A stretch of 33,609 bases of DNA from a virus: IMG/VR virus record IMGVR_UViG_3300021952_000024, positions 1-33,609 of that record. One strand, 5' to 3'. Under the pieces are notes generated by a model. The model had not been told where the DNA came from and made no database searches. It saw nothing but the letters and a program-made list of their open reading frames with translations. The position numbers and the translations under genes were made by a program. Shown piece by piece: positions 2,147-33,609 of this stretch. How positions within the stretch are numbered: position 1 is the stretch's first letter; every line of letters starts with the position of its first letter.

Positions 2147-2149
2147 CAA

Positions 2150-2178
2150 TTGTAAAAATTTCAAGTTTTTGGTAAACT
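2150..2178 (+). promoter_or_regulatory. Promoter before queC
   Basis: TTGTAA at 2150-2155 and TAAACT at 2173-2178 with a 17 bp spacer. The same TTG-N17-TAAACT arrangement is found at 9866 and 27169 in this window, which supports it. It gives queC, the amidotransferase and dpdA their own start point within the modification operon. Confidence 0.5.
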
Positions 2179-2204
2179 GTATCTTTAATTAAATGGAATT
2201 AAAT

Positions 2205-2957
2205 ATGAATATAACAGTGTCGTCTATAATCGAAAAAATGCCAGATTGCGATAAAGTCGTTGTTTCGCTTTCTGGTGGAATGGATTCCACCACCGTTACC
2301 AGATTTGCAGTGGAAAAATACGGGGCGAGTAATGTGTATGCGATCTCGTTCGCATACGGTCAAAAACAGTGTATCGAACTAGAAAAAGCCAGGTCGACCG
2401 CAGAACACCTGAATCTTGCAGAGCATAAAGTTGTGGATATAACATTCTTTGGTGACATGGTTAGAGGGGTGTGCTCTAATATATCTGGGGGCTCTAAGAC
2501 TCCTACTGTGTATGAGGTACTAGGTGATCCTGCACCTAGTACCTATGTACCAAATCGAAATATGGTATTACTGTCTATCGCGGCGTCATACGCGGTTACC
2601 GTAGGTGCTCACGCGGTATTCATCGGCGCACAATCACAGGACGAATACTCTTATTTCGACACGACCCCAGAATTCTTCAGAGCAATGAATTCGGTCGTAG
2701 GACAAATGAGAAAAGACGTGGTACAATACTATGCACCATTTCAGCAATTAAACAAGGCAGACGAAATCCGATTACTATCTGAATTGGATGGGAATGTGGG
2801 GCTATTAAAACATACGATGAGCTGTTATGACCCTACAGATGGTGTAAGTTGCGGAATATGTCCATCATGTGCGGAACGCATCATGGCATTCATGCGGTGT
2901 GGGTTAGTGGACCCTATTCCTTACAAATGCGCCATTTCATGGAAGGATTCTGTCTGA
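2205..2957 (+). CDS. queC: 7-cyano-7-deazaguanine (preQ0) synthase QueC
   Basis: ATP- and ammonia-dependent conversion of 7-carboxy-7-deazaguanine to preQ0. About 250 residues. The PP-loop SLSGGMDSTT is near the N-terminus, and the zinc site CGICPSC plus an earlier Cys (CYDP) lies at the C-terminus, all as in bacterial QueC. The ATG at 2205 is chosen over one at 2193 because GGAA at 2195-2198 is a well-spaced ribosome-binding site for 2205. The stop overlaps the amidotransferase start (TGATG). In several archaea and phages QueC is fused to a glutamine amidotransferase (Gat-QueC); here the two halves are separate but coupled genes. Confidence 0.93.
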   Translation: MNITVSSIIEKMPDCDKVVVSLSGGMDSTTVTRFAVEKYGASNVYAISFAYGQKQCIELEKARSTAEHLNLAEHKVVDITFFGDMVRGVCSNISGGSKTPTVYEVLGDPAPSTYVPNRNMVLLSIAASYAVTVGAHAVFIGAQSQDEYSYFDTTPEFFRAMNSVVGQMRKDVVQYYAPFQQLNKADEIRLLSELDGNVGLLKHTMSCYDPTDGVSCGICPSCAERIMAFMRCGLVDPIPYKCAISWKDSV

Positions 2958-3616
2958 TGTGTGGGCTGTTTGCTAGTTTCGATAAAAATATGTTCGAACT
3001 GTTAGGGAATATAAATTCTGCTAGAGGTTCGCATTCGTTTTCGATCACCTACATCCAGAATGACCTTGTCAGAAGAGTGATGGATGCACAAATCACCAAA
3101 TTTGAAGGGGCGTTTCATTTAGATGGGCGCGAAGCCCTATCAGGCTTCGTCATAGGACACATTCAAGCACCTACGACCACCGCGAGAGACACGATCAACA
3201 TTCACCCGGCCTCAACCGGTGGTGCTTTGTTATGGCATAACGGCCTGATCAAATCGAAGGATGTAACTCGGTTACAGGAGAAGCAAGGGGTTAAAGACCC
3301 GTGGGACACATCGTTGTTATTGACGGAGTTGCAAGGTGGCGGATGCGAGACCATTTCCGCCAATCTATCCGTCCTAGACGGTAGCTTTGCCTGCTTCTAC
3401 ATGAAAAATGGTGAGTTGTTTGTATTTCGTAATGAGATAGGCCCACTGTTTTATAACGACGGGGGAGACTTCAGCAGTCTGGTGCGCCCAGGTATGGTTC
3501 CTGTACCCGCAAATGTATTCTTCCGCGTAGATTTAGATTTCGGCCGGTGTCGGGTAAGTCTAAGGGAGGTGTGTAAATTCACAACATACAATAACCCTTA
3601 TTTCATGCAGGTATAA
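2957..3616 (+). CDS. Stand-alone class II glutamine amidotransferase (Gat partner of QueC)
   Basis: 219 residues starting Met-Cys-Gly, so processing would expose the N-terminal nucleophile Cys2 of Ntn-type glutaminases. Further class II motifs are RGSHSF (conserved Arg), GHIQAPT, an HPAS...LLWHNGLI block (the 'HNG' loop) and LDGSFACFY. The ATG at 2957 overlaps the queC stop; in-frame upstream Mets belong to queC sequence. In Gat-QueC proteins this domain is thought to let preQ0 chemistry continue to the amidated base G+ (archaeosine). Its place between queC and dpdA suggests the same role here. No synthetase domain follows, so it is not a purF- or asnB-type enzyme. Confidence 0.85.
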   Translation: MCGLFASFDKNMFELLGNINSARGSHSFSITYIQNDLVRRVMDAQITKFEGAFHLDGREALSGFVIGHIQAPTTTARDTINIHPASTGGALLWHNGLIKSKDVTRLQEKQGVKDPWDTSLLLTELQGGGCETISANLSVLDGSFACFYMKNGELFVFRNEIGPLFYNDGGDFSSLVRPGMVPVPANVFFRVDLDFGRCRVSLREVCKFTTYNNPYFMQV

Positions 3617-4840
3617 ATGAATAATAACACTTTAGAATATGTCGGGTCTGGTATGGGTAGGACTCGAATGATGCTAAATGATATTCCAGAACACCCGGCT
3701 CTTTTAGAATATATAAGAGCTGGGTTGTCACTGTTGAATAGTGATCCCTTGCATAAGCATGGTGTGCTGTATAACTCGTTGATGGAACCGAAGTATGGGA
3801 GCGTCATTCATAATCTATATAGGGACACGTTACACTCTGTCCATGCAGATTCTGGTGGTTTGCAGGTCATGACTTTAGGAAAAGTCATGACCCCAGAACT
3901 GAAGTTCGGTGTCTATGAAAACCAGGCCGCATATTGTGACGTAGGGATGTCATTCGATGACATCCCTGTGATATCCACATCTAAAACCTCCGTCGTGGAT
4001 ATCACAGGAAGGTATTACGACCCTTCACTGATAAAAGAACGTGCTCATAGCAGTGCAGTCAACATCGTAGAACAAGAGCGCGTGTTTGCTGAACTAGGGA
4101 CCGACGCGCAAGTTTGCGCAATCGTTCATGGACAAACAGGCGAGGACCTACGCCTGTGGGCTGATACGATGAGGGATGTATTGGGGCACGATTTTGGAAA
4201 GGTGTCCTTTGCAACCGCTGCGATGGGAAATGGTGCTAAAGAAGACGTAAAATCTGCTTTCTATGCCGGTCTGCTTAAAGGGGGTGCGAACCACTTACAC
4301 TTTTTGGGTGTAGGGTCTGTCCGGAGATTGTTACCCGTGCTTATTTTTATGCAGAGTGGGCTGTATCAAAACTTACACATCAGCTACGACTCTACCAGCC
4401 TATCATCCGCATCTGTAGGGGGTAAGTATTATATGGCCACTGGTGCGATCAATTTGCATAGGCAACATCATAATGAATGGAATGACGTGTACGATGACAT
4501 TCACGGAATGCTACCCCTTCCATACGATAGGGAGTATTTTCATAGGATGTCCACCACGTCCCCTACAAGGACAGAAGATTTCGCAGGTCCTATATATCAA
4601 ACGTTTTCTATGTACATGGGGAGTGTTTTAAATTTCAAGCGAAATATATCATTGCTACTATCAGATCGAGATTTATTATTATCCACGCTAAGAACTCCGT
4701 TACTTCGGCAGGTCTATAAGTCACTATATGACGTGAATAGTGAGAAAGATTTTGATGATTGGATGCGACTCGCGGGCAGATATTTGCGTTCCGATTCATT
4801 GATGCCACTTAGCACACAGACACTGACAGATTTTTTATAA
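3617..4840 (+). CDS. dpdA: DpdA-type DNA 7-deazaguanine transglycosylase
   Basis: 407-residue member of the tRNA-guanine transglycosylase superfamily. DSGGLQ (D78) matches the substrate-binding 'DSGGFQ' of TGT, SFDDIP (112-117) and HGQTGEDLR (171-179) match further core motifs, and the Asp258 of ISYDSTS is the expected nucleophile position. The C-terminal Cys/His zinc site of true tRNA TGTs is not seen, which is typical of the phage DpdA group that exchanges guanine for a 7-deazaguanine in DNA. It begins directly after the amidotransferase stop and ends the modification operon. Established work on DpdA phages links such enzymes to resistance against host restriction; the exact base made here is inferred. 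Confidence 0.85.
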   Translation: MNNNTLEYVGSGMGRTRMMLNDIPEHPALLEYIRAGLSLLNSDPLHKHGVLYNSLMEPKYGSVIHNLYRDTLHSVHADSGGLQVMTLGKVMTPELKFGVYENQAAYCDVGMSFDDIPVISTSKTSVVDITGRYYDPSLIKERAHSSAVNIVEQERVFAELGTDAQVCAIVHGQTGEDLRLWADTMRDVLGHDFGKVSFATAAMGNGAKEDVKSAFYAGLLKGGANHLHFLGVGSVRRLLPVLIFMQSGLYQNLHISYDSTSLSSASVGGKYYMATGAINLHRQHHNEWNDVYDDIHGMLPLPYDREYFHRMSTTSPTRTEDFAGPIYQTFSMYMGSVLNFKRNISLLLSDRDLLLSTLRTPLLRQVYKSLYDVNSEKDFDDWMRLAGRYLRSDSLMPLSTQTLTDFL

Positions 4841-8367: not shown

Positions 8368-8852
8368 TGCCATACATCATGAATGTGAGTATGGGGGCTA
8401 TACAAACTGGCAACCACCCACACCCCGAACCTGGCGATGAGCTGATTCAAATCGTCGATCCTACTTCAGAATTTCCAACACCAAAATACGGATTTGGTGA
8501 AGTACACCAATTTAAATTTTTGGATACCGATGATGAAACCGGAGACATGTCTGAGTTTGCTTTTACGGCTGAACAAGCAAAAGAAATTGCGTTCATCCTA
8601 CAAGATGCTCTATTGCACGGTGCTAATGTCATCGTTCACTGTCATGCAGGATTGTGTCGTTCTGGCGCAGTTGCGGAGGTTGGAGTGATGATGGGGTTTG
8701 AAGATGCTAAACATACTCGAATTCCGAATGTGCTGGTTAAGCGAAAACTGCTGGAAGCATTGGGTTGGTCGTACAGTTCGGAAGAAGTTAGTCCTATCGA
8801 TATGACAGATAGTAAGAATGTTATTGCCGCTATGAAAGCTGTTCATGATTAA
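8367..8852 (+). CDS. HCX5R dual-specificity-type phosphatase
   Basis: 161 residues with [13 protein letters not shown] at 88-100: nucleophile Cys92, Arg98 and the following Ser make the classic protein tyrosine/dual-specificity phosphatase loop. Acidic candidates for the general acid lie in [10 protein letters not shown] (51-60), the usual distance upstream. The ATG at 8367 overlaps the kinase stop (TGATG). Members of this fold act on proteins, but baculovirus phosphatase and PIR1 remove RNA 5' phosphates with the same loop. The coupling to a kinase gene and an RNA ligase makes an RNA-end substrate worth considering. Substrate not known. Confidence 0.8.
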
Positions 8853-9891
8853 GACGTATTTGGTGGGTGGCGCAGTTCGTGATATTCTGCTAGGTCTGGT
8901 TCCTAAGGATCAAGACTACGTGGTTGTTGGGTCGACGCCTGAAGAGATGCTATCGCTCGGGTTTAAACAAGTTGGTGCCGATTTTCCGGTATTCTTACAC
9001 CCCACGACAGGTGAAGAATATGCACTTGCGCGAAAGGAGCGCAAGACTGCACCTGGTTATAACGGGTTTGAAACGGAGTTTGGCGCAGACGTTTCTTTAG
9101 AAGAAGATTTGTCTAGAAGAGACCTAACCATCAATTCGATGGCAATGAGTGACGATGGCGGTATCATTGACCCGTATGGAGGTGAGCAAGATCTTAAAGA
9201 CAAAATCCTTCGTCATACCAGCGGCGCATTCGTTGAAGACCCTGTAAGGATATTACGAACTGCAAGATTTGCTGCCAGGTATGAGTTTCAAGTTGCCGAC
9301 GAAACCATAACATTCATGGCAGAAATGGTCAATGCTGGCGAGTTTGACGCCTTGACGCCTGAGCGAGTTTGGGTTGAATTTGAAAAGGCGTTTCGGTCAC
9401 CAAACTTCCATATCATGCGGAACGTTTTAATCAAATGCAGTGCGTGGAGAAACCTGCAAACATATCGTTATCTGGACATTGACGCGTATCGTAGAGCGGA
9501 AAGTTCAGATGCGCCCTACGTCGAAAAGGTTGCTTCCGCGTTTGTGGATGTTAGTCGTGTAGAGTATGAAAATGCTAGGGTGCCTAAAGAAATTTCCGAT
9601 TTGGCAACTGTCGCTGATCATGTGTGCAACTTCATCGAACAATGCCATTCATCCATAACAAAAGAAAGTGTGTTATCCTTATTTGCTAAGACTGACTTGT
9701 ACAGAAAACCTGAACGATTTTATTCGGCTGTGAGAGTTGCTAAGTATAGAAATTATGTGGTTCCTAACAACGTCTTAAAATGGTCGGAACAGGTGCTATC
9801 GGTAGATTGTGGGGCGGTTGCTGCAACCTGCATAAACAAAACTGAAATTCCTGGCAAGATTATGCTTGCGCGATTGAATAAAATGCTGTAA
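8845..9891 (+). CDS. cca: CCA-adding tRNA nucleotidyltransferase
   Basis: Adds or repairs the 3' CCA of tRNA. 348 residues, shorter than the E. coli enzyme (412) because the C-terminal HD phosphohydrolase region is missing. The head domain is strikingly bacterial: YLVGGAVRD at 5-13, catalytic D22 and D24, [28 protein letters not shown] and [16 protein letters not shown] almost match the gammaproteobacterial enzyme, suggesting relatively recent acquisition from such a host. It overlaps the phosphatase gene by 8 nt. At least two tRNAs at 30123 and 32047 lack an encoded CCA and would need such activity. Confidence 0.95.
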
Positions 9892-11170: not shown

Positions 11171-12061
11171 ATGTCTAAACTAATCAAATGGCCTTCGATT
11201 GAACAGTTCCGAAATGTTATTCGGAACGTCAAACATAAAACTATGTTCGTAAGTGTCGATCCGACAACTCAAGAGCCTATTTATGATCGCAATCGCCTCC
11301 AGCCCACATTAAAGTTCCGTGGAACTGTAAAATTGCACGGAACTAACGCTGCTGTGTGTGAGCGCACCCACACTGGAGAATTGTGGGCTCAATCGCGAGA
11401 AAATGTGCTTTCTGAAACTGCGGACAATGCAGGATTTTATCAATTCATGAAAGCGAACGAGCATTCGCTCCGAACAATCATCGCACATGCAAAGGTCGTA
11501 TTTGGCGTCCACGCCGCGTGGAATAAGCCCTACATCAGCATCTTTGGTGAATGGTGTGGTGGAAACATTCAGAAGGGTGTAGCGATCACGGGCCTTCCAA
11601 AAATGTTCGTTTTGTTTGGCATTGCGTTTGCAGATGAAGAAGGTAATAAAACTTATCTCACAGAGAAACAGGTTGAAGATGTCGTTTCGCAGTGCCGCGA
11701 CTTTGTTGGAAACGACTGCATTATCAAGAACATTTGGGACTTCAAAACGTTTGCCTTAGATATCAACTTCGAAGACCCACATGTAGCTCAAAATTTGCTT
11801 GGGGAAATGACAGAGGCAGTTGAAAAATCTTGCCCGGTTGGCGAAGCGTTGGGTAGTGTCGGTGTGGGCGAAGGGATTGTTTGGCGGTGCATTGAAGAAG
11901 GTTGGGAAGACTCCGCATATTGGTTCAAAGTCAAAGGCTTAGTACATCAAAAACAAAGTGCGTTTACAAATTTATCTGTTAATCCAGAAATTGAAAATCA
12001 GATCAAACAGTTTTTGAAAGAGAATAACGCTTCAGATTTTAATTTTAAATTCGTCGAATAG
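11171..12061 (+). CDS. Rnl2-like RNA ligase
   Basis: 296-residue covalent nucleotidyltransferase. Motif I KLHGTN gives nucleotidyl Lys54. Motif IIIa is FGEWCGG, motif IV EGIVWR and motif V WFKVKG, all in the correct order, as in T4 Rnl2 (motif I KIHGTN) and relatives. It would seal 3'-OH/5'-phosphate nicks in RNA, for example tRNAs cut by host anticodon nucleases. It closes the RNA-maintenance operon. Its last 17 nt overlap the 3' end of an HNH gene on the other strand, so the C-terminus (FNFKFVE) may have been modified when that gene inserted. Confidence 0.9.
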   Translation: MSKLIKWPSIEQFRNVIRNVKHKTMFVSVDPTTQEPIYDRNRLQPTLKFRGTVKLHGTNAAVCERTHTGELWAQSRENVLSETADNAGFYQFMKANEHSLRTIIAHAKVVFGVHAAWNKPYISIFGEWCGGNIQKGVAITGLPKMFVLFGIAFADEEGNKTYLTEKQVEDVVSQCRDFVGNDCIIKNIWDFKTFALDINFEDPHVAQNLLGEMTEAVEKSCPVGEALGSVGVGEGIVWRCIEEGWEDSAYWFKVKGLVHQKQSAFTNLSVNPEIENQIKQFLKENNASDFNFKFVE

Positions 12062-24122: not shown

Positions 24123-27100
24123 TTACACTTTTCTGTGCAAGTGCGCAATCCAATCGCTCATCTTAGCATGATCTCTCATAAACTCCCCAGTATTCACAAC
24201 CATCTTAGATGAACTTGTATCGCTTGGGAATATGATCATAGGGCCGTGCATAGTGCAGTCAATTTCAGGATGCCCATACAATGCGGGCTCAAACTCTTCA
24301 ATTCTAACCGTGTGGTTCCAGTCAATCGGAATGTTCCCATCCATAAAAGTGTAGTTAGTAGTATGCTGAACGTGTTGTGATTGGTTAGAAATTTCTACTT
24401 GTTCATTCAATTCTGTTTCGCTCTCTTCCATTCTTCGTTGTTGACGCGCAGACTGTCTAGTTTTGACGCGATCTATATAACCACCATCTACTAATTCAAC
24501 CAGATGTACTTTTTTAACAACTAACTGGCGAAGCGGCATAATTACACACCACTCAGGCGATACAGTTGTAAACTCGTCAACATATCCAGGAACGCCCGCG
24601 CTATACCAATCAGCATACGGAGTTTCACGATCGTATGCGGAGTCTTTACGCACTCCCAAATACGCATCCATTTCAAAAATATAACCTTGGGTTCCTATCC
24701 CACGACTAAATCCGTCATCCCCTATATATTGTGCAACTTTATCAAGCGCGTCTGAAAAATAAATTCCGTCGCCTAACATCCGACCAACCGTGGCAACTGT
24801 CCCACTCCCACCATTTTCGCTAATAACTGTAAACCCGTATCTGAGAATCATACTAGCAGCTACAGATCCTGTACCGTGAAACGCCGGTATTACTGTAAGT
24901 TCAGTAATACCTCGAGATTTTAAATCATCTAGGTATGATTTGTTTGCGAAGGTATTATTCGGCAAGTTCACATTCCAAGATTTGATAAATTTGACAGCGT
25001 TTCCGCCGTGCTTATATCTATTAAATTTATCAAAACCTATAGTTAGATCGTCATAATCATCATCGTTCAACTCTAATTTGGAAATTGCTTGTGGTTTAAT
25101 CTTAACAGACTCTTTACGGAAAACTTCGTATTTTTCTTCCACAGTCATGTCGCTTCTAATCACAGGCATGTGAACTTGATTATATCTTAGAATTTCGCCA
25201 ACTTCGTCAAATGACAACTGTTTATGTGGCCCGATTTCACCTCTACCAACTTCGTCAGAAGCAGCGGCAATAAACAAGTTGTCAAACACAAAAGTTTCTA
25301 GTCTCGAATCAAACCCAGCAATCATTGCCTTTAAGTCGTTTAAAGACGTGTGAGCACCGACGATCGCGGTTGCGATAGTTTTCAGCCTGTCTTCAGTATT
25401 CATTCCAGGATTTGTCATTGCGTGGCGTAATAAAGCCAATTTCTGAGGCAACGCTTGTAGATCTTTCTTTAAATCGTACAACAAAGATCCCACCAAACTA
25501 TCCGCAGAGTCGCCCAAGTTTTGAATTGATGAAGAATCTTTCAATTCAAATAATAAGGTAGCATCATGAAACGCATCCGCAAATTTAATCAGATCCGAGT
25601 CTGTAATGTCGCCACTAGAATGCTCGGTTAAAATTGTTGGTCTTATCAACTTATATCCAACCCCAATATACCCACTTCTATATAACATCGGATATACTTG
25701 AAGGGCTGTGAGCTGGGTAGTAAATTTCAAACAGATTTGAGTAACGCTAGACACTGTAGCGGACGACGGGTTTGGATTAAACGGAACCACTACCCCACAC
25801 AATAGGTTGAGCCTATACGGATCTGAAATTTTATCCTCGTTAGCGATACTGACAATATAGTCGTGTAGTTTTGCAACCTCAGCAGTTCCATTGAAGGTGG
25901 TGTAAAGTCTATTCAAGTCTTTGACTAAAGTGCTTTGAGCAATATATTCTGCAGACCCGTATTTCGCAACTGCGAGTTTTCTAAATACGATGTCTAGTTC
26001 CGCATAGATTCTAGAATGGTCGTGTCCGTACTTACGAAATACCGACAGTTTCACTTTTGAGAACTTTGTAGCGCACGTGATCGGGAATTTGCCAAACCCT
26101 TTGGATAAAATGTAAAGCATAATTTCTGTAGGCATATTCATAGCACTTTCAACTATGCCTATCAATGTGGCAGTCATTGCCGTTTCAAAGATCTTATCTA
26201 TGCCACTTTGAACCAAGCTCAAGTCAACTCCGCCTAACTTTTCTAATAGTCGGGATGTAAACATCGGAAGTTTCGTAGCTGCCGTGATGTCAAACAGCAC
26301 CTTGAACAATTGTGGGGAAATTAGCAATAACGAGTTAAGGGTCGTAACCATCACAGCAATATCTGCGGTTTTGAAAACTGTCGATAGCTTATCAAATGCA
26401 GGTTTACTTACAACTATGATGGAAAGTGCGCGAGGGCTTAATTCACCCACCAACTCTAAGAAATTGGCAAGCGTAACGCGTGCAATGAAGTCATCCACTT
26501 CATTGCTTTGATCCGGTTGGGACTGCGAGCTTGCTGGAAGAACCTGTGATGGGTTATGAATCGGCGTAGGGTCATAGTTCGCATTGATAACATGCGAATA
26601 CTTCTTACCCAGTTGAAACAATTCAGTTGAAATCGGTTTGAAATGTGCGGTTGTTGATAAGTGATATAAGTATTGCGCTAATTGTGATAATTCAATCTTG
26701 CCGTTGTAGAAATCTGACAGCCCTTTGTAAATAGGCAATGATGGCTTGTGAATTTGAAGATGTAATTTGTCTAGCCAAGTTCTGACAGAAACTGCGCTCA
26801 CGTCTTCAGGAGCAATGGCGCCTGATTTGATTAAGTAAGCAAACTTAGACAATTGCTCGGCGATTTGGGTTGTAATGATTCCCTGATCTAAAACGTGCTT
26901 GACAGATAGCATCCAATCTGGAGAATCGTCATTTATGTGTGAAAGTCTTGTGGAAGACCCAAGCGTTCTAACCGCAACAGCTTTATCATCTACAATAGAA
27001 TACAAAGATACAAAGCCTATAAAGTTAAGGTAAAACGCGTCAATGACAGCTTGACGGTCAACCAAGAATGCGTGTTTTGATACTGGATCTGTATAAAGGG

Positions 27101-27155
27101 AATTTTCTGATAATTGTGGCATGATTAGCATTACAAGAATTGTAGATACTAACAT
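24123..27155 (-). CDS. 1010-residue protein with PARP-like ADP-ribosyltransferase domain
   Basis: The first 650 residues are mostly helical and match nothing I recognise. Residues about 745-885 have the PARP-type ART layout: His760 in AFHGTGS, Tyr799 in MLGDGIYFSD (compare GKGIYFAD of PARPs), an AQYI helix, and Glu868 in SPEWCVIM at the place of the catalytic Glu, giving an H-Y-E triad that predicts NAD+-dependent mono- or poly-ADP-ribosylation. An acidic, Gln-rich linker and about 80 further residues follow. The size suggests either an injected virion protein (as T4 Alt, unrelated in fold detail) or an early effector. No good ribosome-binding site precedes the ATG at 27155; Mets at 27131 and 27122 are alternatives. 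Confidence 0.75.
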   Translation of the reverse strand: MLVSTILVMLIMPQLSENSLYTDPVSKHAFLVDRQAVIDAFYLNFIGFVSLYSIVDDKAVAVRTLGSSTRLSHINDDSPDWMLSVKHVLDQGIITTQIAEQLSKFAYLIKSGAIAPEDVSAVSVRTWLDKLHLQIHKPSLPIYKGLSDFYNGKIELSQLAQYLYHLSTTAHFKPISTELFQLGKKYSHVINANYDPTPIHNPSQVLPASSQSQPDQSNEVDDFIARVTLANFLELVGELSPRALSIIVVSKPAFDKLSTVFKTADIAVMVTTLNSLLLISPQLFKVLFDITAATKLPMFTSRLLEKLGGVDLSLVQSGIDKIFETAMTATLIGIVESAMNMPTEIMLYILSKGFGKFPITCATKFSKVKLSVFRKYGHDHSRIYAELDIVFRKLAVAKYGSAEYIAQSTLVKDLNRLYTTFNGTAEVAKLHDYIVSIANEDKISDPYRLNLLCGVVVPFNPNPSSATVSSVTQICLKFTTQLTALQVYPMLYRSGYIGVGYKLIRPTILTEHSSGDITDSDLIKFADAFHDATLLFELKDSSSIQNLGDSADSLVGSLLYDLKKDLQALPQKLALLRHAMTNPGMNTEDRLKTIATAIVGAHTSLNDLKAMIAGFDSRLETFVFDNLFIAAASDEVGRGEIGPHKQLSFDEVGEILRYNQVHMPVIRSDMTVEEKYEVFRKESVKIKPQAISKLELNDDDYDDLTIGFDKFNRYKHGGNAVKFIKSWNVNLPNNTFANKSYLDDLKSRGITELTVIPAFHGTGSVAASMILRYGFTVISENGGSGTVATVGRMLGDGIYFSDALDKVAQYIGDDGFSRGIGTQGYIFEMDAYLGVRKDSAYDRETPYADWYSAGVPGYVDEFTTVSPEWCVIMPLRQLVVKKVHLVELVDGGYIDRVKTRQSARQQRRMEESETELNEQVEISNQSQHVQHTTNYTFMDGNIPIDWNHTVRIEEFEPALYGHPEIDCTMHGPMIIFPSDTSSSKMVVNTGEFMRDHAKMSDWIAHLHRKV

Positions 27156-28631: not shown

Positions 28632-28692
28632 TGGTGAGCCCAGGAGTTGCACACTGGAATTCGTCCTTGGTATGAAGTCAGTTGCTGAACTC
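28632..28692 (-). pseudogene. Truncated tRNA-like element with CCA
   Basis: GAGTTCA (28692-28686) pairs along its whole length, with two G-U wobbles, with TGGGCTC (28642-28636), followed by A and CCA: a complete tRNA acceptor end. Only 43 nt lie between, too few for normal D, anticodon and T arms, and none folds convincingly. The CCA end can also pair into a hairpin with downstream GGTGAG (28622-28638). Decayed tRNA or a small tRNA-like RNA. Confidence 0.4.
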
Positions 28693-28703: not shown

Positions 28704-28778
28704 TGGTGGCGAATGTGGGAATCGAACCCCGTTTAGTCCTTATGAGAGACTCGTGTTTGCCATTACACTACATTCGCC
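28704..28778 (-). tRNA. tRNA with CAT anticodon (Met or Ile2)
   Basis: GGCGAAT/ATTCGCC acceptor, anticodon loop CTCATAA, discriminator A, encoded CCA. The T-stem has two mismatches. It does not look like an initiator. The 5' 11 nt overlap the stop region of the upstream HNH gene. Confidence 0.82.
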
Positions 28779-29361
28779 AAGCATTCACGTTACTAACTAC
28801 CCTCGACGCATCTTTGACTCTGGAATGATCTGGTAATAACGCCGCCAGATATTCATGCTGACAATGCAAGATTTTTGGATTTTGCAAAATTAACCGTTCT
28901 ATATGAGACGGTACATACGGCTTGAACAGTAAATCCATGTCTGCTTCAACCGGAGTTCTGTCAGCCTTTTCCCAATTGCACGTCTTACATGAAGTGATGC
29001 AGTTTAACCAAGTATCTTCGCCCCCGCGTGATTGCGGCACAATGTGATCTCTGTTCAATTTATGTGTTGGGTGAAACCTTCCACAATATGCGCAAGTGTG
29101 CAAATCCCTCCGAAACAAATTAGCATTTGTCAATGGCGGCGTGCGCTTACCAAAACGAAATCGACCTTTAACCGCCACAATCGGGGCAACTGAAATCGAC
29201 GTTCTGTTTCCTGTCAGTCTTGAAGTGCCGCCAAAGAATGTTTCTGATTCTTCCGGTGCATATTCCCAAGCGACGTTCCCTTCATATTTCAATTTGATAA
29301 CGCTATGCTGGCTCGCCCAACGATGGGGTATGCCGCTTGCGTCTAGCGTCAAAACCTGCAT
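28768..29361 (-). CDS. HNH endonuclease (bacterial type)
   Basis: 197 residues of a widespread HNH family. An N-terminal beta domain (VLTLDASGIPHRWASQHSVIKL..., FGGTSRLTGNRTS) is followed by PPLTNANLFRRDLHTCAYCG, RDHIVPQSRGGEDTWLNCITSCKTCN and a PYVPSHIERLIL end. The HNH core has two CxxC pairs for zinc and the catalytic His of RDHIVP. AGGAG precedes the ATG. The last two sense codons and the TAG stop lie inside the tRNA just downstream, so the gene is physically fused to that tRNA. A tRNA-targeted homing role is inferred. Confidence 0.9.
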   Translation of the reverse strand: MQVLTLDASGIPHRWASQHSVIKLKYEGNVAWEYAPEESETFFGGTSRLTGNRTSISVAPIVAVKGRFRFGKRTPPLTNANLFRRDLHTCAYCGRFHPTHKLNRDHIVPQSRGGEDTWLNCITSCKTCNWEKADRTPVEADMDLLFKPYVPSHIERLILQNPKILHCQHEYLAALLPDHSRVKDASRVVSNVNAWRM

Positions 29362-29375
29362 AGTATCTCCTAAAA

Positions 29376-29555
29376 TTATTTGATCTGCGTAAACTTTAAA
29401 GTCTCAATTTTTGAAGTTGGCGGAGTTGCCACTACAACTTCTTGTTCATATTCTTCATTGCTTGGAATTCCGCCATAAGTTATAGCGGGAACGGTTGCAG
29501 ACTTTATTCTTACTAAACCTTTAACCTCAGGAATACCACAGAAAATTGTAATCAT
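29376..29555 (-). CDS. Unknown 59-residue protein
   Basis: The ATG at 29555 is chosen because the longer frame (to 29681) would run through the tRNA-Cys gene. Sequence MITIFCGIPEVKGLVRIKSA then TVPAITYGGIPSNEEYEQEV: small, beta-like, with one Cys. It ends 14 nt before the HNH start and may be its upstream operon partner. Ribosome-binding site is weak (GGG run 6-12 nt upstream). Confidence 0.45.
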   Translation of the reverse strand: MITIFCGIPEVKGLVRIKSATVPAITYGGIPSNEEYEQEVVVATPPTSKIETLKFTQIK

Positions 29556-29581
29556 ACTACCCGCGCCCTTCATATGTGAAT

Positions 29582-29659
29582 TGGAAGCTAGTATCGGATT
29601 TGAACCGATGGTTGTGCGGATTTGCAATCCGCTGCATTCGACCACTCTGCCAACTAGCT
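29582..29659 (-). tRNA. tRNA-Cys (GCA)
   Basis: AGCTAGT/ACTAGCT acceptor, anticodon loop TTGCAAA in GCGGA/TCCGC, T-stem ATCGG/CCGAT, discriminator T and encoded CCA. The upstream small ORF stops at the TAG within its first six bases. Confidence 0.92.
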
Positions 29660-29848
29660 TTCGATAAACACCCCTTCGCAAAATCGTTGATAGTTTTGTG
29701 CAACATCTTCATCTATCTGGTTGGTCAAGGATGCCAATAAGTCGACACGCGGCACAACAGAAATCACTAAAATTGACAGCAGTTCGATAAATTCTAACCA
29801 CATCCAGTCAAACAGATAATTTCTATCAAACATTCCGAAATCAACCAA
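29654..29848 (-). CDS. Unknown small membrane-type protein ending inside tRNA-Cys
   Basis: 64 residues. AAAGGAG lies 5 nt before a TTG at 29848, which I take as the start; GTG 29854 is too close to that site and ATG 29833 too far. The N-terminal half is hydrophobic and Trp-rich (YLFDWMWLEFIELLSILVISVV), one likely membrane helix, and the C-terminal half is acidic. The stop TAG is formed by bases 4-6 of the tRNA-Cys gene. Function unknown. Confidence 0.45.
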   Translation of the reverse strand: MVDFGMFDRNYLFDWMWLEFIELLSILVISVVPRVDLLASLTNQIDEDVAQNYQRFCEGVFIES

Positions 29849-29868
29849 CGTCACTCCTTTCTGAATAC

Positions 29869-29945
29869 TGGTACCGGAGACAGGACTCGAACCTGCATAG
29901 ATGCCCGAGTAGAAATCGGGTGCCTTTCCATTAGACTACTCCGGC
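29869..29945 (-). tRNA. tRNA-Arg (TCT)
   Basis: GCCGGAG/CTCCGGT acceptor, anticodon loop TTTCTAC in CCCGA/TCGGG, discriminator A, encoded CCA. Reads AGA/AGG, rare in many bacterial hosts. Confidence 0.92.
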
Positions 29946-29953
29946 AAAACTTT

Positions 29954-30029
29954 TGGCATCGCGAGCTAGACTCGAACTAGCATAACACTTGCTTCGTAGG
30001 CAAGGGCACATCCTTTGTACCACCGCGAT
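29954..30029 (-). tRNA. tRNA-Arg (ACG)
   Basis: ATCGCGG acceptor with one G-U pair, anticodon loop CTACGAA in CTTGC/GCAAG, discriminator G, encoded CCA. The A34 would need TadA deamination to inosine to read CGN. Confidence 0.92.
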
Positions 30030-30034
30030 ATGAT

Positions 30035-30109
30035 TGGTGCGCTTGGACAGGATCGAACTGCCAACTAGAGTTTCGAAGACTCCTATGATATCCATTTCAC
30101 CACAAGCGC
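30035..30109 (-). tRNA. tRNA-Arg (TCG)
   Basis: GCGCTTG/CAAGCGC acceptor, anticodon loop CTTCGAA, T-stem GGCAG/CTGTC, discriminator A, encoded CCA. Reads CGA/CGG, complementing the other two Arg tRNAs. Confidence 0.92.
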
Positions 30110-30122
30110 ATAAAGTAGATAG

Positions 30123-30197
30123 TCTGGGCGGTTGGATTTGAACCAACGACCGCGTCCTTCCAAGGGACCCATGCAAACCAGGCTACACTACGCCCAG
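30123..30197 (-). tRNA. tRNA-Pro (TGG), no encoded CCA
   Basis: CTGGGCG/CGCCCAG acceptor, anticodon loop CTTGGAA, T-stem GTTGG/CCAAC, discriminator A. The next bases are CTATC, so the CCA must be added after transcription. Confidence 0.92.
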
Positions 30198-30222
30198 ACT
30201 ATCTACTCTACATTAAAAATTT

Positions 30223-30310
30223 TGGTGCGTCTGAAGGGAGTCGAACCCTCACGCCGATTACAGGCACTAGCATCTCAGACTAGCGTGGTTACCATTTACA
30301 CCACAGACGC
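30223..30310 (-). tRNA. tRNA-Leu (GAG)
   Basis: Class II, 88 nt. GCGTCTG/CAGACGC acceptor, anticodon loop CTGAGAT, a GCC/GGC variable arm, T-stem GAGGG/CTCCC-type, discriminator A, encoded CCA. Confidence 0.92.
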
Positions 30311-30316
30311 ATTGTT

Positions 30317-30407
30317 TGGAGGTAGGTGGGAGAGTTGAACTCCCAAACCCATTTCTGGATCAAACATCTTTCGAGGATGTGTCGCTCGCCAATACGATAG
30401 ACCTACC
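30317..30407 (-). tRNA. tRNA-Ser (CGA)
   Basis: Class II, 91 nt. GGTAGGT/ACCTACC acceptor, anticodon loop CTCGAAA in ACATC/GATGT, T-stem GGGAG/CTCCC. CCA is encoded, with a T discriminator where Ser tRNAs normally have G. Confidence 0.88.
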
Positions 30408-30414
30408 AGTTATT

Positions 30415-30690
30415 TTAGAATCCGGGTATTGTAACATCTTGATATTTCATAGACTTAGATACAGATCTATGCTTCTTATCATCATACACTTGAATAGACT
30501 GATTCCCGCCGTATGCTTGATGGTACTTTGTTGGAATCTTTAAAGACTGCTCACCTGCATAGGCGCGTGCCTCAGATTCAGAATCAAACGACCCTAAATG
30601 CTTGTGCAAATCCCCTCCACCTGGAGCAGCACGCGTTGCTCTTGCATATACATGGAACTGTGGAGATTTCAGCATTTCAGATACTAACAT
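30415..30690 (-). CDS. Unknown 91-residue protein
   Basis: AAAGG lies 8 nt before the ATG. One compact module: a strand (QFHVYARAT), a Gly-rich loop with His (GGGDLHKHLGSF), a helix (SESEARAYAGEQ) and a strand (QSIQVYDD). It resembles in outline the C-terminal part of the His-rich protein at 27740. The first 14 nt overlap the end of the 50-residue basic protein gene upstream. Confidence 0.6.
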   Translation of the reverse strand: MLVSEMLKSPQFHVYARATRAAPGGGDLHKHLGSFDSESEARAYAGEQSLKIPTKYHQAYGGNQSIQVYDDKKHRSVSKSMKYQDVTIPGF

Positions 30691-30829
30691 ATTTGTTGCC
30701 TTTCAATGTTAAATCAATTCTATCGCGCTTGCGATTTTTAACTCCAACGCAAATTTTAATTTTTGAACTAGCGCGTTGACGAATTGTAGTGCAACCGCCA
30801 AATGTTCGTTTAGATCCAAACGCTCTCAT
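30677..30829 (-). CDS. Basic 50-residue protein
   Basis: GGAG sits 6 nt before the ATG at 30829, and the frame stays open to TGA at 30677. Strongly basic (about 14 Lys/Arg in 50) with two Cys: MRAFGSKRTFGGCTTIRQ... and KIKICVGVKNRKRDRIDL. Likely nucleic-acid binding from charge alone. Part of a run of four small genes downstream of the promoter at 31297. Confidence 0.55.
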   Translation of the reverse strand: MRAFGSKRTFGGCTTIRQRASSKIKICVGVKNRKRDRIDLTLKGNKYVSI

Positions 30830-30848
30830 TTTATTCTCCACATATTGT

Positions 30849-31010
30849 TCAGCACATGAATGCGGTATTACGACGCAAGAACTCTGCCTCTAATTTATTA
30901 AACGCGATAATATCGCCAGAAACGGGTAAATTTTCAAATGAAATTTGATATCGTTTCGTTAGATATTCAACTGCTTCCCAAGACATATTTCTAGTAACGC
31001 ACCAGTTCAT
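30849..31010 (-). CDS. Unknown 53-residue ORF
   Basis: Begins MNWCVTRNMSWEAVEYLTKR and ends FLRRNTAFMC. It starts 13 nt after the previous gene's stop and has no clear ribosome-binding site; an internal Met 8 codons later is an alternative. The helical, charged sequence looks more protein-like than chance, and no other gene covers this stretch. Confidence 0.4.
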   Translation of the reverse strand: MNWCVTRNMSWEAVEYLTKRYQISFENLPVSGDIIAFNKLEAEFLRRNTAFMC

Positions 31011-31023
31011 GATTTGTAAGCGA

Positions 31024-31260
31024 TTATTTTACCATTAAATCCGCAACATGCTGATAACGAACTTGAAAATTCCAAGCATCTTTTGTGCTGATATCTCCGT
31101 TCGGGTATTTGTAGGTCACTTCGTAATCCCACTTTCCATCACCAAACTTTCGGACGGATACGATTTCACATTTAATCCCAGCACCGTCACAAGACACCCA
31201 TTGCTCGCCTGCATTGAAGGCAGCCCCGTTCGCTTTATGAAATTTAATTTTACCGTTCAT
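31024..31260 (-). CDS. Unknown 78-residue protein under strong promoter
   Basis: The ATG at 31260 is fixed by AGGA upstream; the longer frame from 31305 would start inside the promoter. Beta-rich, SH3-like looking sequence: KIKFHKANGAAFNAGEQWVSCDG, KCEIVSVRKFGDGKWDYEVTYKYPNGD. First gene of a - strand unit of four small genes followed by seven or more tRNAs. No family recognised. Confidence 0.7.
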   Translation of the reverse strand: MNGKIKFHKANGAAFNAGEQWVSCDGAGIKCEIVSVRKFGDGKWDYEVTYKYPNGDISTKDAWNFQVRYQHVADLMVK

Positions 31261-31296
31261 TTTGCATTTCCTAAGTTTTAACTGATTGATGTGCGT

Positions 31297-31324
31297 ATTA
31301 TACACACTTTTTAGAAAATGTAAA
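31297..31324 (-). promoter_or_regulatory. Strong promoter inside the tRNA array
   Basis: On the - strand: TTTACA (31324-31319), 16 bp, TATAAT (31302-31297) within GTGTATAATACGCACATCAATCAG. Same family as the promoters at 7328, 14687 and 21233, but without an upstream terminator hairpin. Confidence 0.88.
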
Positions 31325-31333
31325 GTGGTTTAT

Positions 31334-31421
31334 TGGCGGAAGGCAGAGGACACGATCCCCAAGCCATCGCTGGCTCCAACTGATTAGCAATCGGCGTCTG
31401 CGCCTCGCAGAATTACCTTCC
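31334..31421 (-). tRNA. tRNA-Ser (GCT)
   Basis: Class II, 88 nt. GGAAGGT/GCCTTCC acceptor, anticodon loop TTGCTAA, variable arm AGCCA/TGGCT, discriminator G, encoded CCA. The T-loop (ATCGTGT) and one anticodon-stem pair are irregular. Confidence 0.82.
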
Positions 31422-31427
31422 ATTGTT

Positions 31428-31502
31428 TGGTACTTCGTTTGGGAGTCGAACCCACACCTGATCCTTGTAAGGGACCTATTCTTACCGTTAAACTACCGAA
31501 GC
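31428..31502 (-). tRNA. tRNA-Val (TAC)
   Basis: GCTTCGG acceptor with one G-U pair and one mismatch at its base, anticodon loop CTTACAA in GGTCC/GGATC, T-loop TTCGACT, discriminator A, encoded CCA. Confidence 0.88.
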
Positions 31503-31508
31503 ATTGTT

Positions 31509-31602
31509 TGGCGGAGAAAGAGGGAGTTGAACCCACAAACCTAGGGTCACTAGGTCAAACAGTTTTCAAGACTGCGCAGCTTGCCAATGCTGTGATTTCT
31601 CC
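31509..31602 (-). tRNA. tRNA-Ser (TGA)
   Basis: Class II, 94 nt. GGAGAAA acceptor, anticodon loop CTTGAAA in a CAGT/ACTG stem, long variable arm ACCTAG/CTAGGT, discriminator G, encoded CCA. Together with GGA, CGA and GCT it completes serine decoding. Confidence 0.92.
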
Positions 31603-31727
31603 ATTGTATTTCCCCGCTGATAGCGGTAGTAGGCATAAGTGGGCACTGCGCCACGTCTCCCAACTACAGTCTATCACTAAGTTCAACGAGCTTCTATCAA
31701 AAGAATTACACGTCAAAACGGGCTGTT
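31603..31727 (-). other. Non-coding stretch with stem-loop
   Basis: No convincing ORF. GTAGT (31626-31630) and ACTAC (31663-31667) close a stem-loop that contains an inner GTGGG/CCAC pairing. It may be spacer RNA processed between tRNAs or a small RNA. Confidence 0.35.
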
Positions 31728-31805
31728 TTAGAAAGCTCCTGTGTGAGCTAACACTTCAAACCAGATATACGCCGCACCTGCGGCCAACATCAATTTCTTT
31801 TTCAT
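31728..31805 (-). CDS. Very small hydrophobic peptide (25 residues)
   Basis: AAGGAAAT precedes two adjacent ATGs (31808 and 31805). The peptide starts MKKKLMLAAGAAYIWFEVLA and ends HTGAF: three Lys followed by one short hydrophobic helix, the form of a small membrane peptide. It lies in a tRNA-array gap otherwise without genes. Good start signal but little else, so moderate confidence. Confidence 0.4.
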   Translation of the reverse strand: MKKKLMLAAGAAYIWFEVLAHTGAF

Positions 31806-31843
31806 CATATTTCCTTTTCGTAGTTATTGTTATGACAGGATCT

Positions 31844-31913
31844 GTATAAGGTTGGGCTCAAACCAACACCTCAAAGTTTTACCTTTGCGCTCTTTCATTT
31901 AAGCTACTTTCCC
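31844..31913 (-). pseudogene. Degenerate tRNA
   Basis: Recognisable D-arm (GCTT...GAGC), anticodon stem CAAAG/CTTTG and perfect T-arm GTTGG-TTTGAGC-CCAAC. The anticodon loop has only six bases (GTAAAA), the acceptor (GGGAAAG / CTTATAC) has two mismatches, and no CCA is encoded. Amino-acid identity cannot be assigned. Confidence 0.55.
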
Positions 31914-31951
31914 AAAGTGGAAAAATTTAATTGCTGTAGAGATCCTTCAAA

Positions 31952-32028
31952 TGGTGGGTCTGGCCGGACTCGAACCGACAACCTGGGGATTATGAGTCCC
32001 TCGCGCTGACCAATTGCGCCACAGACCC
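31952..32028 (-). tRNA. tRNA with CAT anticodon (Met or Ile2)
   Basis: GGGTCTG/CAGACCC acceptor, D-stem GCGC/GCGC, anticodon loop CTCATAA in GGGA/TCCC, discriminator A, encoded CCA. Regular structure. Elongator Met and lysidine-modified Ile cannot be told apart by eye. Confidence 0.92.
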
Positions 32029-32046
32029 ATTCAAAATTCGCTTAGG

Positions 32047-32119
32047 GGTGCATACTGGAATTTGAATCCAGTCTACGACTTTCACAGAGTCGGGTGCGAA
32101 CCATTACACTATACGCACC
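32047..32119 (-). tRNA. tRNA-His (GTG), CCA not fully encoded
   Basis: GTGCGTA/TATGCAC acceptor with an extra 5' G facing C73, the hallmark of tRNA-His. Anticodon loop CTGTGAA in GACT/AGTC, T-stem CTGGA/TCCAG. The 3' end continues CCT, not CCA. Confidence 0.9.
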
Positions 32120-32420
32120 CCGAAGCGAACTTCGGTCTTTATAGTACAGTCATCACACTGTACCAATTGTCGGATAACAACTTGCGCAAGTTGTTATCAG
32201 TTAGGAGGAAGAACACCCTGATAGACATAAGCTATCTATCAACACGAGCCGTCTGTGCGCTTGACGTGCAATATCGCGAACCATCGCAGTTTGCCTCAGC
32301 AATAGTCATTGAGGGATTTAATTTGACTTAACTATCTGCCCGACCTTCTAGTCGTTTACCGACTATATTGGCAGCGTCGTATTCACGAGTTGTCGCGGTG
32401 TTTCTCGTTCAGTCAAAACT
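32120..32420 (-). ncRNA. Hairpin-rich non-coding region in tRNA array
   Basis: About 300 nt without a credible gene but with four stems: CCGAAG/CTTCGG (32120-32135, a TTCG loop on the - strand), GTACAGT/ACTGTAC (32144-32163), a 26 nt perfect palindrome with half-site GATAACAACTTGC (32173-32198), and TAGTCG/CGACTA nested in CTGCC/GGCAG (32336-32374). A structured RNA made with the tRNAs is likely; 5' and 3' ends are unknown. Confidence 0.4.
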
Positions 32421-32495
32421 TGGTGGGCCAACTGAGAATCGAACTCAGCTCACGCGATTAAAAGTCGCGGTAATAAACCAATATACGATTGACCC
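32421..32495 (-). tRNA. tRNA-Lys (TTT)
   Basis: GGGTCAA/TTGGCCC acceptor with one G-U pair, anticodon loop CTTTTAA in CGCGA/TCGCG, T-stem CTGAG/CTCAG, discriminator A, encoded CCA. tRNA-Lys is a known target of phage-triggered anticodon nucleases. Confidence 0.93.
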
Positions 32496-32675
32496 TTCAC
32501 AACAAATTATTACAGAGAAACTCAAAATCTCTAAATATATGTCTCTGTAATTTGTAGATCCGAGCCAGTTGTTAGATCGTCATCAAGTTCAACTGGCTCT
32601 AATCGAAGCTGGTGGGGTATCAGGTTGTAAAGCACAATCATCCCATCCTCCATTTACTTGCCTCACTTCAATGTT
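32496..32675 (-). other. Non-coding stretch with two long hairpins
   Basis: No gene seen. TTACAGAGA/TCTCTGTAA (32510-32550, extended by CAAA/TTTG to 32503-32554) and GAGCCAGTTG/CAACTGGCTC (32562-32599) are perfect stems. Near 32610 the - strand reads ATACCCC-A-CCA, another tRNA-like 3' end without a matching 5' acceptor strand. Confidence 0.4.
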
Positions 32676-32723
32676 TGGTATGCCGGGCGGGAGTCGAACC
32701 CGCATGTCCATTACGGACGGCAG
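32676..32723 (-). pseudogene. Truncated tRNA-like element with T-arm and CCA
   Basis: A perfect T-arm (GCGGG-TTCGACT-CCCGC), acceptor strand CCGGCAT, A and CCA form a good tRNA 3' half. The 5' side offers only TGCCG to pair with CGGCA, with one short hairpin (GTCC-GTAAT-GGAC) in between. About 48 nt in all, so no separate anticodon arm. Remnant or minimal tRNA-like RNA. Confidence 0.45.
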
Positions 32724-32743
32724 TATAATACGATGTTAGTAAT

Positions 32744-32820
32744 TGGTCCGGGCGGGTAGATTCGAACTTCCAAACATAGAATTTTAAGTTCTATTGCTTT
32801 ACCAATTAGCATACGCCCGG
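32744..32820 (-). tRNA. tRNA-Leu (TAA) of class I shape
   Basis: CCGGGCG/CGCCCGG acceptor, D-stem TGCT/AGCA, anticodon loop CTTAAAA in TAGAA/TTCTA, T-loop TTCGAAT, discriminator A, encoded CCA. 77 nt with a 5 nt variable region, whereas leucine tRNAs normally have a long variable arm. The upstream HNH gene ends inside its first 15 nt. Confidence 0.85.
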
Positions 32821-33480
32821 TATAAGATTAGCAAATCTATGATTTGTTATCAACTGATAACACCTTTCGTAATTAGCACCCTTAGGAGTCATATTAACCT
32901 CCATCAAAGCTGCCCTAATTACGAAATTATTTTTTAATAACGAATTTAACAAATCTTGGTCTGAAACATCTTTACGTCCTGTATTAGTTCCACGCCCTCT
33001 CCACGTTGGAGTCAAAGCATGGCAATTCGGACATAACAATTTCAAATTTTCTTTTGTATTATTTTTGTTATTCCCGTCAATATGATCTAATTCTAATGGG
33101 ATTAAATTTTCCATCCACTTAACCAACCCGCAGGACTCGCAAGCTCGTCCTCGCTCATTTATCAATATCGTTTTATGTGGGCCTCGACCATTGACTGTAA
33201 ATATCGAGCTTGGGTCGTATTCTGACCGTATTCTTGGGTCGTTAACGACCGTAAGCCCTTTAGACCACCCTCCGCGAGAACTACTGCCAAAAGCGTGAAT
33301 CATTACGCCAGAAACATGTGCTTTCTTCAACCCGTCAGAATTTCTCTTTCTGACGGCGGAACATTTAGAGCTTCGTTCCTCACACATCAATTTCTTAGAT
33401 CCGTTAATGAACTTTGCTATATTTCCACACCCGTATGAACAAAGTTCAACAGTTTCTATCGGTGTTGCAATGCGCTTCAT
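32806..33480 (-). CDS. HNH endonuclease overlapping a tRNA
   Basis: 224 residues. An N-terminal Cys-containing part (CSYGCG, CEERSSKC) resembles a small zinc knuckle. The HNH core is CESCG, then LELDHIDGNNKNNTKENLKLLCPNCHALTPTWRGRG, the classic phage/HNH form with two CxxC pairs. The C-terminal 50 residues end with a DQDLLNSLLKNNFVIRAALMEVNM helix-turn-helix-like segment. The ribosome-binding site is poor. Its last five codons, CCG GGC GTA TGC TAA, are exactly the first 15 nt of the tRNA-Leu gene. A homing function aimed at tRNA loci is inferred. Confidence 0.88.
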   Translation of the reverse strand: MKRIATPIETVELCSYGCGNIAKFINGSKKLMCEERSSKCSAVRKRNSDGLKKAHVSGVMIHAFGSSSRGGWSKGLTVVNDPRIRSEYDPSSIFTVNGRGPHKTILINERGRACESCGLVKWMENLIPLELDHIDGNNKNNTKENLKLLCPNCHALTPTWRGRGTNTGRKDVSDQDLLNSLLKNNFVIRAALMEVNMTPKGANYERCYQLITNHRFANLIPGVC

Positions 33481-33506
33481 AGTTATGACTTAATTAGTAA
33501 ACACAT

Positions 33507-33608
33507 CTATTTAGTGAATTGATAAGTCTGCTGAATATACCAATTTCTCCACCAGCACATAAACTTAAACGGGATCTCGTTGCTTTCACAGCCAATAGTG
33601 AATGTATT
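33507..33608 (-). CDS. C-terminal end of a gene cut by the window edge
   Basis: A frame open from the right edge ends at TAG 33507. The 33 visible residues are aromatic- and Cys-containing (CESNEIPFKFMCWWRNWYIQ then QTYQFTK) and look protein-like. It lies 26 nt upstream of the HNH start, on the same strand. Identity unknown. Confidence 0.45.
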   Translation of the reverse strand, partial: NTFTIGCESNEIPFKFMCWWRNWYIQQTYQFTK

Positions 33609-33609
33609 G

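Follow-up and report, generated by a model that had tools for sequence, protein, structure and literature searches.

A phage HNH endonuclease gene and the tRNA-Leu gene it runs into lie within a broken tRNA-Leu gene: a candidate home-and-rescue cassette

The IMG/VR virus record IMGVR_UViG_3300021952_000024 (33,609 nucleotides, analysed over its full length and referred to here as the window) carries three protein genes that end inside the transfer RNA (tRNA) gene downstream of them, all on the minus strand (Table 1). Both HNH1 and HNH2 encode a homing-type nuclease domain (HNH), and the third gene is a small open reading frame (ORF), ORF66. An earlier note on this DNA had placed the three stop codons within the 5' ends of the downstream tRNAs, at bases 9–11, 4–6 and 13–15, which we confirm at all three junctions; at HNH2, the TAA at bases 13–15 of tRNA-Leu(UAA) closes the frame CCG GGC GTA TGC TAA. 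The codon usage of ORF66 is coding-like, scoring 0.215 per codon against a maximum of 0.157 for non-coding frames, and AGAAAGGAG is located upstream of its TTG codon. HNH1 and HNH2 have atypical codon usage (0.05–0.08), as would be expected of mobile genes. Similarity searches, viral contigs included, found no homologue of ORF66, and searching the viral contigs with HNH2 (as a single-sequence scan), ORF66 and a neighbouring protein of 1010 amino acids returned no relatives; a scan of the region for sigma-70 promoters and terminators gave scores near background. The whole analysis consists of sequence comparison, based on fragmentary viral contigs and on tRNA calls made chiefly by one program.

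Table 1 Features at and around the three protein/tRNA junctions of the window
Feature	Positions	Strand	Description
Degenerate tRNA-Met remnant	28632–28692	-	Just 3' of the tRNA-Met overlapped by HNH1; 92% over 26 nucleotides to tRNA-Met(cat) bases 43–66
tRNA-Met(CAT)	28704–28778	-	Overlapped by HNH1
HNH1	28768–29361	-	HNH endonuclease, 197 amino acids; TAG at 28770–28768 is bases 9–11 of tRNA-Met; Pfam HNH_5, 6.3e-14
tRNA-Cys(GCA)	29582–29659	-	Overlapped by ORF66
ORF66	29654–29848	-	Small protein, start at TTG 29848 or GTG 29854; TAG at bases 4–6 of tRNA-Cys
Orphan 3' half of resident tRNA-Leu	32676–32724	-	Variable arm, T arm, acceptor and ACCA; matches 3' ends of tRNA-Leu(taa); T arm by Rfam
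Complete tRNA-Leu(UAA), putative replacement copy	32744–32820	-	ARAGORN; Rfam tRNA, 56.9 bits; overlaps HNH2 by 15 nucleotides
HNH2	32806–33480	-	HNH endonuclease, 224 amino acids; Pfam HNH, phrog_14736 6.5e-28; last codons and TAA inside tRNA-Leu
ACTAAATA	33508–33515	-	Resembles a T4-type late promoter element, by sequence; at the start of the cassette
Orphan 5' half of resident tRNA-Leu(UAA)	33524–33558	-	GTGCTGG..GCAGACTT, bases 1–34; broken inside the anticodon

Judged from the DNA itself, HNH2 and the tRNA it overlaps lie inside a broken tRNA gene of the same isoacceptor. The order is an orphan 5' half of a resident tRNA-Leu(UAA), HNH2, the complete tRNA-Leu(UAA) and an orphan 3' half. 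The 5' half upstream of HNH2 (33558–33524) reads GTGCTGGTGGAGAAATTGGTATATTCAGCAGACTT and is 87% identical to bases 7–36 of the tRNA-Leu(taa) at another viral locus, L193 (loci used for comparison carry L numbers), and the acceptor strands of the two halves, GTGCTGG and CCGGCAT, pair at 7/7 positions, two of them as G-U. This broken tRNA-Leu is our main explanation of the HNH2 junction. As a separate observation on the complete tRNA-Leu(UAA), its variable arm is of the short class I type, which is unusual for a bacterial tRNA-Leu and could affect how the host enzyme charges it; tRNA-Leu calls of 77 nucleotides were also made in L006 and L008.

The same layout recurs at other loci. These were picked by protein similarity, and the isoacceptor frequencies given here apply to the nuclease families concerned. 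Twenty-five de-duplicated orphan 5' halves belong to the same amino acid as the tRNA downstream, and in each of the first ten cases, the window included, the gene that follows the half is an endonuclease. At least four endonuclease groups occur in this layout, namely relatives of HNH2 (L038, L041, L055 and L083), a SegE-like GIY-YIG gene (L146, Trp), phrog_15137 endonucleases (L075, L158 and L163) and a phrog_1872 endonuclease (L194), and between them the cases cover Leu, Met, Ser, Pro and Trp tRNAs. The phrog_15137 family was scanned after the layout had been predicted for it: 48 of its 74 de-duplicated genes abut a tRNA, which in 37 of the 48 is tRNA-Met, and an orphan 5' half was detected for 18 of the 48, with the same amino acid in 12 of these 18 where 6.6 were expected (permutation, p < 0.0002). 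A complete tRNA enclosed by two halves with full acceptor pairing, as judged by eye from the sequences, was found in the window and at L041 (Pro), L055 (Leu), L083 (Leu) and L259 (Met). At L075 (3229–4790), two cassettes stand in tandem: a phrog_15137 nuclease paired with tRNA-Ser comes first and an HNH2 gene paired with tRNA-Leu second, and in front of each is a tRNA 5' half of the matching kind.

The enclosed tRNAs bear on two alternative histories. A nuclease gene could have broken one copy of a tandem tRNA duplicate that was already present, and some phage clusters do hold two tRNAs of one amino acid, the window itself having three tRNA-Arg and three tRNA-Ser genes. Against this, the two halves enclose the complete tRNA in the window and at L041, L055, L083 and L259. 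Moreover, the resident half is 53% similar to the replacement tRNA and 54% similar to any tRNA of that isoacceptor; the replacement thus differs strongly from the resident, but not beyond other tRNAs of the isoacceptor, and since it is no closer than any of these, local duplication is unlikely. We regard the tandem-duplicate account as mostly refuted and give it very little credence. Alternatively, the nuclease gene might be what is left of a group I intron that occupied the anticodon loop, with the nearby complete tRNA a coincidence. The distance from the break to the reading frame is only tens of bases, and the complete tRNA between the halves is of the same isoacceptor at several loci, both of which speak against an intron remnant; as no Rfam match to a group I intron was obtained at E up to 10 in 32600–33609, we reject this account as highly improbable.

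Where the resident gene is broken can be read from the 5' halves. When the 25 de-duplicated halves are aligned on the anticodon, T33 is matched in 20/25 and base 34 in 15/25, as opposed to 2/25 for base 35 and 5/25 for base 36. In these alignments, homology to the resident tRNA thus ends sharply between anticodon bases 34 and 35 (34|35), across different tRNAs and nuclease groups. Relatives that differ in the presence of the insert at a fixed site (L194/L152, L230/L261, Aeromonas phages avDM1/44RR2.8t and L010/L008; the window is not among these pairs) show the two states side by side. At L152, an intact tRNA-Leu(UAA) lies downstream of a TTGACA/TATAAT-like promoter; at the syntenic locus L194, the promoter and tRNA bases 1–27 are kept (96%) and are followed by an endonuclease gene that extends 38 nucleotides into a different, complete tRNA-Leu(UAA). 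Likewise, the tRNA-Ser(GCU) that is intact in L261 is broken after G34 in L230, where a nuclease gene and another tRNA-Ser(GCU) follow. The target gene is thus disrupted, being broken at 34|35 and intact in L152 and L261, and the cassette carries a complete tRNA of the same amino acid, for which tRNA function is predicted.

The sequence between break and nuclease gene suggests how the cassette may be expressed. The T4-type late promoter element TATAAATA has TAAATA as its core, and this hexamer is present within 60 nucleotides of the break in 20 of 22 cassettes, against 3.4 in shuffled sequences. This signal emerges when measured from the break point; the best TATAAATA score in 60 nucleotides did not separate HNH genes from other genes. 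At L194, the promoter of the resident tRNA is additionally preserved upstream of the nuclease. Since little or no room is left between them, a nuclease gene and its tRNA are probably on one transcript.

The overlap itself has to be seen against how often tRNA genes contain stop codons. In a set of 832 different phage tRNAs, a stop is met early, with its first base at or before base 25, in 46% of the (tRNA, frame) combinations, and stop positions peak at base 8 (17%) and base 13 (7.5%). Because tRNA 5' ends are so rich in stops, an ORF that enters a tRNA without a stop of its own will usually end there, and by their positions the stops of the overlapping genes are supplied by tRNA consensus bases. 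Where HNH2 relatives end on a stop of their own, it is usually TAA (19/23); tRNA-embedded stops are mostly TAG or TGA (21/27). Overlaps were counted among de-duplicated conserved genes having a tRNA on the same strand within 100 nucleotides and required the whole stop to lie inside the tRNA. On this count, 32/69 genes of the HNH1 and HNH2 families end in a tRNA, compared with 22/104 other conserved ORFs (Fisher p = 7e-4), as do 35/48 tRNA-adjacent phrog_15137 endonuclease genes (de-duplicated). Many of the 22 are also nucleases (T5orf172/GIY-YIG, SegE, HNH and phrog_15137), and the non-nucleases among them include peptide deformylase, MazG and glycosyltransferase. Annotated overlaps are found as well, of 10 nucleotides for the HNH gene and tRNA-Leu of Salmonella phage Arash, the HNH gene and tRNA-Asn of Gordonia phage Lozinak, and gp35 and tRNA-Thr of S-CBWM1, and of 24 nucleotides for T5 gene T5p067 and tRNA-Asn. 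The point that needs explaining is therefore why nuclease genes abut tRNAs so often.

Two side observations concern other nuclease genes near tRNAs. The last codons of two HNH genes at L074 (3608–4378 and 6743–7243), GVEPT and GFEPP, resemble reverse-strand tRNA, and these genes may run into a convergent tRNA. A GIY-YIG gene that ends in tRNA-Ile (L051, 1816–2471) is largely deleted in L052, where the deletion lies at a short AAAGAA repeat; we considered the two as a filled and an empty site and rejected the pair, as it reflects an internal deletion of the GIY-YIG gene.

Plain compaction would account for the overlaps with neither an element nor a function, packed genes simply running into the next tRNA and stopping at its consensus stops. 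The deformylase, MazG and glycosyltransferase genes that end in tRNAs, and the early stop in 46% of tRNA frames, agree with this, and it is probably enough for ORF66. It leaves unexplained why broken tRNAs of the same isoacceptor surround endonucleases, why the break falls so sharply after base 34 and why nucleases are enriched, and for HNH2 it is contradicted by the flanking halves, so that as a general explanation we consider it quite unlikely.

The earlier note had instead proposed a regulatory role for the overlap. Cleavage by ribonuclease P (RNase P) at the tRNA 5' end would remove the stop codon from a shared transcript, and the resulting nonstop mRNA would be handled by transfer-messenger RNA, keeping the endonuclease low; alternatively, translating ribosomes would delay tRNA maturation. 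The geometry on which this depends is right at all three junctions. The overlap is moreover frequent (32/69 and 35/48), a shared transcript is plausible given the promoter kept in L194 and TAAATA in 20/22 cassettes, tight regulation of homing endonucleases is known (PMC2988022), and an equivalent model has been published for selB/tRNA-Sec (PMC8124441). The same note had expected its proposal to fail if relatives lacked the overlap, and in part they do: it is present in 32/69 HNH-family genes and absent or variable in many relatives. Relative to the tRNA, the stop lies at -15, -4, -2 or +1 in HNH1 relatives beside tRNA-Cys, and anywhere from -63 to +19 in HNH2 relatives; the overlap is thus not kept within either family, which argues against a conserved regulatory role, and the stops that are used are those ready-made in tRNAs. 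Regulation by RNase P is possible, and we deem it an unlikely reason for the overlaps.

Not all of the overlaps arise in the same way. An HNH gene of Aeromonas phage avDM1 extends 36 nucleotides into tRNA-Leu; comparison with its relative 44RR2.8t, which is without the gene, reveals a 471-bp insert whose right edge is exactly base 1 of the tRNA-Leu, the tRNA being otherwise kept (99%). In L010, compared with L008, a 362-bp insert ends 6 nucleotides short of tRNA-Thr, and the gene it carries has its stop at bases 8–10 of that tRNA, and in Escherichia phage OE5505 an HNH gene replaces the tRNA-Gln of T4 and abuts tRNA-Leu. As the tRNA is present in the gene-free relative in each of these cases, the borrowed stop was not brought by the gene. 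These comparisons define a second, simpler mode, in which the insertion is flush: the endonuclease gene directly abuts the 5' edge of a tRNA, and the tRNA is left intact. HNH1 may be such a flush insertion. Its relatives end soon after a conserved (D/K)HSRV, and HNH1 adds a tail of 15 residues that runs into the tRNA. The nearest relatives (L002–L016) follow tRNA-Gly and have no tRNA downstream; in other relatives the gene runs up to or into a tRNA-Cys or tRNA-Ser. As for ORF66, it resembles a normal resident gene that overlaps a neighbouring tRNA, and both the HNH1 and the ORF66 overlaps look like ordinary compact junctions.

As read from the DNA, then, the HNH2 locus comprises a late-type promoter element, an endonuclease gene and a complete tRNA, and these interrupt a same-isoacceptor resident tRNA gene at 34|35. 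We think it likely that HNH2 and its overlapping tRNA-Leu are a single mobile home-and-rescue cassette inserted at this point. In co-infecting phages that are without the cassette, the endonuclease would cut the resident tRNA gene in the anticodon region, recombination repair would copy the cassette into the cut site, and the bundled tRNA would make up for the tRNA function that is lost. The anticodon would be a good target because it is not free to mutate, and the nuclease gene would abut the tRNA because both travel as one unit. A nuclease gene without a stop of its own would use the one built into the tRNA, the overlap following from compact packing, and as a by-product RNase P would probably remove the stop from some of the mRNA.

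Several observations weigh against this interpretation. Cleavage, mobility and rescue are all steps that we infer from sequence. In the window, erosion has affected the 3' half close to the break. Searches among phages and plasmids gave no near relative of the window, and hence no close relative with an empty site, so that there is no empty-site comparison for the window itself. The halves at L042 and L075 fail the acceptor-pairing check, and at L038, L055, L194, L205, L259 and L211 the recognisable half stops before base 34. A 5' half is detectable in only a minority of tRNA-adjacent nucleases (18/48 for phrog_15137 and 7/58 for HNH1 and HNH2 together), where the remaining halves may have eroded or the insertions may be flush. 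Finally, no flanking tRNA halves were found around HNH1 or ORF66, and no 5' half upstream of HNH1.

We also lean, with somewhat less confidence, towards a broader proposal, that such natural home-and-rescue elements constitute a widespread class in phages, in which unrelated endonucleases (HNH, SegE-like GIY-YIG and phrog_15137 type) would have converged on 34|35, each with a late-type promoter and a tRNA of the same isoacceptor, so that the target is hard to mutate away and the phage keeps its tRNA. If true, this would explain, through selfish elements that replace the tRNA they disrupt, why phage tRNA clusters show turnover, duplicates and broken tRNAs, and would give each nuclease a predicted target site that is directly testable. 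For annotators, it would mean that protein genes whose ends lie in tRNAs, and "pseudo-tRNA" halves flanking nucleases, should be taken as genuine.

Some further features of the window can be mentioned. Two tRNA-like stretches on the minus strand were missed by ARAGORN, one at 31843–31913 (Rfam, 34.3 bits) and one at about 31333–31422, which by eye is a tRNA-Ser(GCT) with a long variable arm. The 1010-amino-acid protein (24123–27155, minus strand) has a PARP-like ADP-ribosyltransferase region (Pfam PARP below cut-off; phrog_18612, 2e-82) and is related to Stenotrophomonas and Aeromonas phage proteins. By eye, the plus strand encodes a putative CCA-adding enzyme (tRNA nucleotidyltransferase, 8845–9891) and RNA ligase (11171–12061), which would be in keeping with a phage that maintains or repairs a large set of tRNAs, and FolE-, QueC- and TGT-like genes (589–4840), which suggest 7-deazaguanine modification of the phage DNA.

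Our literature searches, which covered few subscription journals, did not find a phage endonuclease bundled with a replacement tRNA in a split tRNA gene, and we rate the cassette as a variant of homing elements that we have not found described before. Several known systems resemble it in part. Intronless homing by free-standing phage endonucleases is already known (PMC2988022; PMC3984707), and there too the gene for the endonuclease is spread by cleavage of a site close to where it is inserted, whereas the HNH2-type cassette breaks the target gene itself and carries a whole substitute. SegB, a free-standing GIY-YIG homing endonuclease of T-even phages, is reported to cut within tRNA genes (PMC13096335; PMC2988022) and, like HNH2, is encoded in a phage tRNA cluster; in T4, however, segB lies between tRNAs, and the sections of these reports that we draw on describe no broken resident tRNA with a same-isoacceptor replacement for SegB. 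Group I introns in tRNA anticodon loops, as in cyanobacterial tRNA-Leu(UAA) and tRNA-fMet, are likewise selfish DNA in the anticodon region, and for tRNA-fMet an endonuclease specific for that region is known; the cassette differs in being without an intron, function being restored by a spare complete tRNA and not by splicing. For selB and tRNA-Sec, where a protein stop also lies inside a tRNA on the same strand, Mukai (2021) proposed the RNase P nonstop-mRNA model as a control (PMC8124441), but selB is a resident gene and not a mobile endonuclease, and no tRNA gene is comparably broken. A further parallel is offered by the home-and-rescue or toxin-antidote gene drives that have been engineered (PMC7968924, PMC7046741), in which a nuclease disrupts a needed gene while the drive supplies a rescue copy. 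Those drives are synthetic and built in insects, whereas the phage cassette, if our interpretation is true, would be their natural counterpart, in which a tRNA would serve as both the target and the rescue.

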